Below, piece after piece: positions 24,154 through 25,309 of a DNA stretch of 34,625 bases (its first letter is position 1; each line of letters begins with the position of its first letter). The notes beneath the pieces are model-generated. The model was not told the DNA's origin. It made no database searches and worked only from the letters and a program-made list of their open reading frames with translations. Source of the DNA: Microbacterium sp. (GTDB lineage Bacteria > Actinomycetota > Actinomycetes > Actinomycetales > Microbacteriaceae); the NCBI RefSeq assembly GCF_031178525.1, contig NZ_JAPSJA010000005.1, positions 1-34,625 on the forward strand. Reading direction: 5' to 3'. Both the position numbers and the translations under genes were made by a program.

Positions 24154-24588
24154 ATGCGCGACAACGTCATCCTGTGGTGGATCGTCTGTGCGTTCTGCAC
24201 GATCGTCGCGATCGGGTACACGGTGTGGAGCATCACCGAGTACTCCGAGCGCCCGGTGACCGTGGCCATCGAGTGGGTCGGCTCCATCGCGCTGCTGTTC
24301 GGCGCGGCGATGAGCGCGATGATCGCGTTCTATCTGAGCAAGACCCACAAGGCGCAGGGCGGCGAGCTGCCCGAGGACGTGCTCACGGCGGACATCGACG
24401 ACGGTGACCCCGAGCTGGGCGAGTTCAGCCCGTGGTCCTGGTGGCCCATCGTGCTGGCCGCCTCCGCCGCGATCTTCCTCATCGGCCTGGCCGTCGGGCA
24501 CTTCCTGCTGCCGATCGGCCTGGCGATCTTCGCCGTGGCGATCGTCGGTTGGGTGTACGAGTACTACCGCGGCCACTTCGCTCGCTGA
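24154..24588 (+). CDS. ctaF: Cytochrome c oxidase subunit 4 (actinobacterial CtaF)
   Basis: About 144 aa, 4 TM segments, directly follows ctaD; C-terminal GWVYEYYRGHFAR. Confidence 0.92.
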   Translation: MRDNVILWWIVCAFCTIVAIGYTVWSITEYSERPVTVAIEWVGSIALLFGAAMSAMIAFYLSKTHKAQGGELPEDVLTADIDDGDPELGEFSPWSWWPIVLAASAAIFLIGLAVGHFLLPIGLAIFAVAIVGWVYEYYRGHFAR

Positions 24589-24595
24589 GACATCC

Positions 24596-24706
24596 ACGAA
24601 GGCCCCTCAGGACGTGGGCGGATTCAAGGGGTGGTCGCAACACCGAGTTTCGGGAGGTTGCGACCACCATTTGAAATCCGCCCGGCCTGTCCTGAGGGGC
24701 CTTCGT
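24596..24706. repeat. 111-bp nested fold-back: outer 18-bp terminator-like stem with a second inverted-repeat element in its loop
   Basis: ACGAAGGCCCCTCAGGAC (24596-24613) / GTCCTGAGGGGCCTTCGT (24689-24706), 18 of 18 pairs; GGGCGGATT (24616-24624) / AATCCGCCC (24675-24683); GGTGGTCGCAAC (24630-24641) / GTTGCGACCACC (24657-24668), 12 of 12; apical CCGA-GTT-TCGG (24643-24653). Confidence 0.9.
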
Positions 24707-24749: not shown

Positions 24750-25169
24750 TCAGGCGCGCATGCGCACGCGGGGAACGCCTGTGAGCGGGTCGATGGGGCG
24801 GCGATGCACCCCGTCGGCGTCCTCGACCGGATAGCCCTCCCGCCCCCAGTACTCGAAGCCGCCGATCATCTCGCGCACCGCGTACCCGAGCGCGGCGAAC
24901 TCGAGCGCGCCCTTGGCGCCGGCGTTGCAACCCGGGCTCCAGCAGTAGACGATGACCTCGGCCGTCTGCGGGATCTCTTGTGGTGCACGCGTGGCGATCT
25001 CGCTGTAGTGCATGTGGATCGCCCCGGGGACGCGTCCCTGGGTCCAGGCCTCGTCGGAGCGCACGTCGACGACGACGAGAGGAGTCCCGGCCTTGCGTGC
25101 GGCGTGCACATCACTGGCATCCGTCTCGTAGGCGAGCTTGGCGGCGAAGTAGTCGTGGCGGTCGATCAT
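24750..25169 (-). CDS. Rhodanese-like domain protein
   Basis: VVVDVRSDEAWTQGRVPGAIHMHYSEI, YCWSPGCNAGAKGALEFAALGYAVREMIGGFEYW; start at MIDRHDY, leaderless-type. Confidence 0.92.
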   Translation of the reverse strand: MIDRHDYFAAKLAYETDASDVHAARKAGTPLVVVDVRSDEAWTQGRVPGAIHMHYSEIATRAPQEIPQTAEVIVYCWSPGCNAGAKGALEFAALGYAVREMIGGFEYWGREGYPVEDADGVHRRPIDPLTGVPRVRMRA

Positions 25170-25243
25170 GAACCCAGGGTACGCCGTGCCGGTCACGGGT
25201 CGCGGCCGTATGGCATCCGCTCGGGGGAGTGCGGGGTATGCCA

Positions 25244-25289
25244 GAGGCCCCGCCGGTGCTGAGACGAGCTCAGCGGCCGACGGGGCCTC
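25244..25289 (-). terminator. Long stem-loop downstream of qcrB
   Basis: GAGGCCCCG (25244-25252) / CGGGGCCTC (25281-25289), inner GCTGAG (25258-25263) / CTCAGC (25269-25274); 20 bp past the qcrB stop. Confidence 0.75.
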
Positions 25290-25309
25290 CGGTGGGGGAG
25301 CGGCGGGTG

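Follow-up and report, generated by a model that had tools for sequence, protein, structure and literature searches.

A putative IS30-family remnant folded into the loop of a terminator-type hairpin downstream of ctaF in Microbacterium

IS30 itself has a preference for palindromic targets. The full-length elements considered here, which are the nearest relatives of a short insert in Microbacterium sp., resemble the IS30 family (NF033563) in possessing a DDE transposase with an HTH_38 domain, inverted repeats of about 25-28 bp and short target duplications, but unlike IS30 they use the loops of terminator-type hairpins, which share a common form, not one sequence; the Microbacterium sp. insert, in addition, has no transposase. 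Two members of the IS1182 family, IS1272 and TnSha1, find their targets, terminator hairpins among other stem-loops, by structure, not by sequence; with IS1272, the stem-loop is lost and no target duplication arises (PMC4923244, PMC5678879). The present elements are similar to these in having terminator hairpins as targets and differ from IS1272 in that they leave the hairpin arms in place, lie within the loop and commonly show 3-bp duplications. Insertion sequences such as ISPsy8 enter at the symmetry axis of REP hairpins, with a 3-bp duplication in the case of ISPsy8; the families named in this connection are IS3, IS110, IS4, IS256 and IS5, and IS30 is not among them (PMC1525189). Insertion at the hairpin axis is common to ISPsy8 and the elements described here, but the target of ISPsy8 is one repeated family (REP), not terminators. 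Group IIC introns are associated with rho-independent terminator stem-loops (PMC7923331); unlike the insert, however, such an intron is a retroelement that inserts next to the stem-loop instead of entering the loop. Finally, bacterial MITEs are short, non-coding, repeated and transposed elements with inverted repeats, for which stable RNA folds are possible (PMC10969869); the Microbacterium insert is similarly short, non-coding and foldable but is present in a single copy.

The insert is located between a ctaF-like gene and a convergent rhodanese-like gene in the window, i.e., the whole stretch of 34,625 nucleotides that was analyzed. The hairpin that encloses it begins 7 bp after the ctaF stop codon, and the insert itself begins 27 bp after that codon. 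The locus comprises the following features.

24154..24588, + strand: ctaF-like gene for a cytochrome oxidase subunit, 144 aa (open reading frame; homologues in 80 of the 88 relatives searched)
24596..24613, + strand: left arm of the predicted terminator hairpin, ACGAAGGCCCCTCAGGAC (pairing; relatives carry ordinary hairpins with a similar sequence at this position)
24614..24615, no strand: GT, left remainder of the putative terminator loop (sequence)
24616..24683, + strand: candidate cargo-less IS30 remnant, 68 bp, with outer tips GGGCGGATT...AATCCGCCC (matches to IS ends)
24616..24644, + strand: left terminal inverted repeat GGGCGGATTCAAGGGGTGGTCGCAACACC, with a tip of the right-end type (match to right ends; tip comparison)
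24645..24668, + strand: leader-derived part, including the loop (from an alignment to full-length left ends)
24652-24657, + strand: Shine-Dalgarno-like GGGAGG (within the leader-derived part)
24657-24668, + strand: inverted copy of the inverted repeat core, GTTGCGACCACC (within the leader-derived part)
24669..24683, + strand: right tip ATTTGAAATCCGCCC, from the right inverted repeat (tip comparison with full elements)
24684..24688, no strand: GGCCT, right remainder of the putative terminator loop (sequence)
24689..24706, + strand: right arm of the predicted terminator hairpin, GTCCTGAGGGGCCTTCGT (pairing)
24750..25309, - strand: rhodanese-like gene, convergent; the upper coordinate is approximate because the start is not settled (translation of the open reading frame)

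The nested pairings proposed in the sequence-only reading are reproduced: the outer stem (24596-24613 with 24689-24706) is complementary at 18 of 18 positions, the inner repeats consist of GGGCGGATT/AATCCGCCC (9 bp), CAA/TTG, where one base bulges out, and GGTGGTCGCAAC/GTTGCGACCACC (12 of 12), and the apical hairpin is CCGA-GTT-TCGG. As also proposed there, removal of 24616-24683 leaves an 18-bp stem with a 7-nt loop, GTGGCCT; the folding energy of this form is calculated as -39.3 kcal/mol. The RNA fold of the complete structure is a single hairpin made of the insert and the arms, at -89.4 kcal/mol compared with -44.0 +/- 4.0 kcal/mol for shuffled sequences (z = -11.5, with none of the 200 shuffles as good). 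The same structure is present in a second assembly of the species, the Microbacterium sp. MAG RH59_bin.022 (G352), which is 99.994% identical over 18 kb, so that an assembly artefact can be discounted.

Homologues of ctaF were collected from relatives, and the sequence 3' of each stop codon was read. In about 15 relatives from the same genus, ctaF is followed by an ordinary hairpin of 14-19 bp with a loop of 4-5 nt, which corresponds to the empty terminator between ctaF and the rhodanese gene that had been envisaged from the window alone; the closest of these relatives (L054) shows 90% amino acid identity, and more distant members of the set have no hairpin or a different one. The hairpins of the relatives are GC-rich, with stems similar to the window arms (e.g., AAGAAGGCCCCCGGA-GCGA-TCCGGGGGCCTTCTT), and their energies range from -33 to -39 kcal/mol, the window hairpin without the 68 bp being at about -39 kcal/mol. 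Given that the relatives have a short-loop hairpin and that the window arms are of the same kind, the 68 bp represent an addition in the loop. A GC-rich hairpin immediately 3' of the end of ctaF is the arrangement of an intrinsic terminator. No T-rich tract follows the stem, and a strict terminator scan gives no site at the window hairpin; the ctaF hairpins of the relatives likewise lack a T tract and have tails such as CTTCGTG. The form and position of the window hairpin, together with the orthologous hairpins, suggest that it is a terminator.

Searches started with the insert identify IS30-type ends in many genomes, in agreement with the original impression that the inner arms resemble transposon ends. 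Positions 4-55 of the insert (52 bases) match the left end of full-length, 1.47-kb Microbacterium IS30 elements at 91% in G328 and 89% in G303, and the left repeat of the insert (24616-24644) shows a 97% match to right ends in the same two genomes. The transposase of the matching elements is identified as NF033563, transpos_IS30, with E = 8.5e-86, and contains the Pfam domains HTH_38 and rve. Thus, the terminal inverted repeats of the insert match IS30-family ends, as expected of an IS30 remnant. In the full-length Microbacterium elements, the left end reads GGTTCTAGCGGTGGTCGCAACACCCCGAGTTTCGGGAGGTTGCGACCACC-GTG, where GTG is the transposase start codon; the insert follows this left end through GACCACC and then jumps to the right-end tip ATTTGAAATCCGCCC. 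The left tip of the insert, GGCGGATTCAAGGGG, is of the right-end type, not of the left-end type GGGTTCTAGCGG, so that the right-end type is the closer match for both tips; an unsampled progenitor or homogenization of the arms inside the palindrome could explain this. A viral scan and a phage search yield no useful relatives.

The full elements have a characteristic leader, in which an inverted copy of the left repeat follows it and extends over the Shine-Dalgarno site up to the transposase start codon. Because of this inversion, the leader copy and the right repeat have the same orientation, as direct repeats, and in the nearest elements the two are near-identical (GTTGCGACCACC in the leader and GTTGCGACGACC in the right repeat). 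The pairing within the leader is maintained by compensating changes; for example, some elements have GGTGGTCG opposite CGACCACC, and others GATCCCCG opposite CGGGGATC. Paired cells amount to 97.6%, and 6 of the 13 pairs show changes on both sides, far above slid controls. In ISPpu9, from another family, the 5' leader has been shown to hide the ribosome-binding site (PMC8450116); the leader hairpin of the IS30 elements may hide the transposase start site when transcription enters from outside. Decayed IS30 left ends that retain the leader hairpin are found at three loci (L122, L123 and L125), in some cases with half-terminators on the left.

For comparison of flanks, 60 loci from Microbacterium and 14 from other genera were fetched. 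In the transposase tree, the nearest full-length elements form one clade of 19 with support 96/84, of which two members are cut by contig ends; the target habit was counted on the other 17, which are intact with both flanks readable (four each in G345, G399, G731 and G587, and one in G328). The flanks pair across the element in all 17, from three genera, forming GC-rich hairpins that are split at or near the loop (e.g., GAGAAAGCGCCCGCCCCGATatc[IS]ATCGGGGCGGGCGCTTTCTC); these copies are partly non-independent, one flank being common to L156 and L157 and the copies of any one genome having the same transposase. The stem score is at least 10.5 in 16 of the 17 and at least 11 in 15, the lowest being 8. 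For random positions given a simulated 3-bp duplication, the rates are 0.47% for scores of at least 10 and 1.4% for at least 8, and these are, if anything, too high because the random background includes terminator regions. Identical 3-bp flanks are seen, by eye, in about 11 of the 17. Of the nine Microbacterium sites checked, the majority are found 25-51 bp beyond a stop codon, and several are situated between convergent genes. These observations suggest that the transposase of the clade recognizes hairpin shape. Paired flanks are absent in a decayed relative with two in-frame stops (L223), and in another decayed copy (L225) the pattern is absent or the flanks are unreadable. Other Microbacterium IS30 groups (1234 bp and 1216 bp) mostly lack the hairpin-loop habit, and some have other long palindromic targets; at L183/L184, L204, L210/L211 and L206-L208, the targets are long, partly repeated palindromes and look like different target classes. 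Separately, L156 and L157 in G345, separated by over 3 Mb in their coordinates, have a common left flank and different right flanks, pointing to recombination between IS copies. In the open-licence literature searched, no description of the terminator-loop habit in an IS30 group came up, although a negative search does not prove that none exists; the novelty lies in the target habit of the clade nearest to the insert.

Matching IS30 ends, empty hairpins in relatives and a nearest full-length clade that inserts into loops bear out the suggestion of the sequence-only reading that an IS remnant sits in a terminator loop; the ancestral structure that it had set against this suggestion, shared in full by relatives and with arms that match no IS end, is not what is found. 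In the reading that we consider probable, the insert is what remains of a loop-targeting IS30 element that was reduced in situ to a fold-back scar, such that the terminator arms can pair again. An IS30 element of the terminator-loop clade would have inserted into the loop of the terminator shared by ctaF and the rhodanese gene. The transposase gene would then have been lost by deletion between two near-identical copies of GTTGCGACCACC, namely, the leader copy (the inverted left repeat over the transposase start) and the right inverted repeat, and this one-step loss of the intervening DNA would yield the window form; cargo-less pairs of IS30 ends in other bacteria show products of this kind to be recurrent. 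The self-complementary 68-bp scar would fold on itself in RNA, rejoining the terminator arms as one long hairpin. The arms should be able to pair again because, in folds of successive prefixes, the inner hairpin closes before the outer arm is complete, and the modelled structure is compatible with a terminator that probably still works. The order of events, and deletion in place rather than transposition of a short form, appear to be the best interpretation of this arrangement.

No clear target duplication flanks the window copy, where GTG and CGG lie beside the insert ends; mutation, recombination or an irregular event could explain this, and an old remnant may lose its duplication. The lack of a duplication also speaks against the unlikely case that a pre-existing minimal non-autonomous IS30 derivative, a MITE, reached the loop through a transposase acting in trans. 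This scenario gains some plausibility from cargo-less pairs of IS30 ends of about 55-70 bp, with both ends intact, in Streptomyces plasmids, Paraburkholderia, Caulobacter and Microvirga, which show that such forms exist. The insert, however, is single-copy in both assemblies of the species, the one other full match to the 68 bp among 369 genomes of the genus being the same-species assembly, and neither a second copy of the end motif nor a full-length copy or parent element was found in the host species. A search of the complete sister assembly for an IS30 transposase, with positive controls included, gives 0 matches. Thus, the minimal MITE of the sequence-only reading is not supported: the insert is a short non-coding element with both inverted repeats, as MITEs are, but the several transposed copies are lacking, and a multi-copy MITE was rejected for this reason. 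As to their own locations, the cargo-less pairs in these other bacteria are mostly inside IS3-type transposase genes. Another IS30 lineage, found in actinobacteria and proteobacteria, resides inside IS3/IS481-type transposase genes at conserved HSDRGSQ|Y codons (L039, L042-L045, L214, L036, L038 and L119; L046-L051, L216 and L218), and cargo-less forms occur in this lineage as well.

It is also rather improbable that a terminator-targeting IS30 element was present but left its remnant through irregular transposition or a template switch, not through repeat deletion; the site without a target duplication and the two tips closer to the right-end type would fit such an event, but the order of left repeat, leader loop and right tip is the one that repeat deletion predicts. 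Very improbable is a reading with no insertion, in which a structured RNA was co-opted or a terminator evolved a longer stem. The fold is very stable, and the leader hairpin in full-length elements is under pairing constraint, but the relatives have the plain short hairpin, for which reason a purely ancestral RNA was discarded; the match of the insert to IS ends goes most of the way to refuting the reading, and the sole matches in Rfam, to miRNA precursor families, fall far below the gathering scores.

A wider proposal, plausible although somewhat short of probable, is that for a clade of IS30 elements in Microbacteriaceae the loops of terminator hairpins, recognized by shape, are a safe harbour, and that the design of the element ends is such that an internal deletion leaves a scar that restores the terminator. 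By choosing terminator loops, transposons leave genes unbroken and land where transcription ends. If the DDE transposase recognizes hairpin shape, not sequence, this amounts to a testable targeting rule, and the fold-back scar suggests a route by which an insertion may be rendered harmless without excision.
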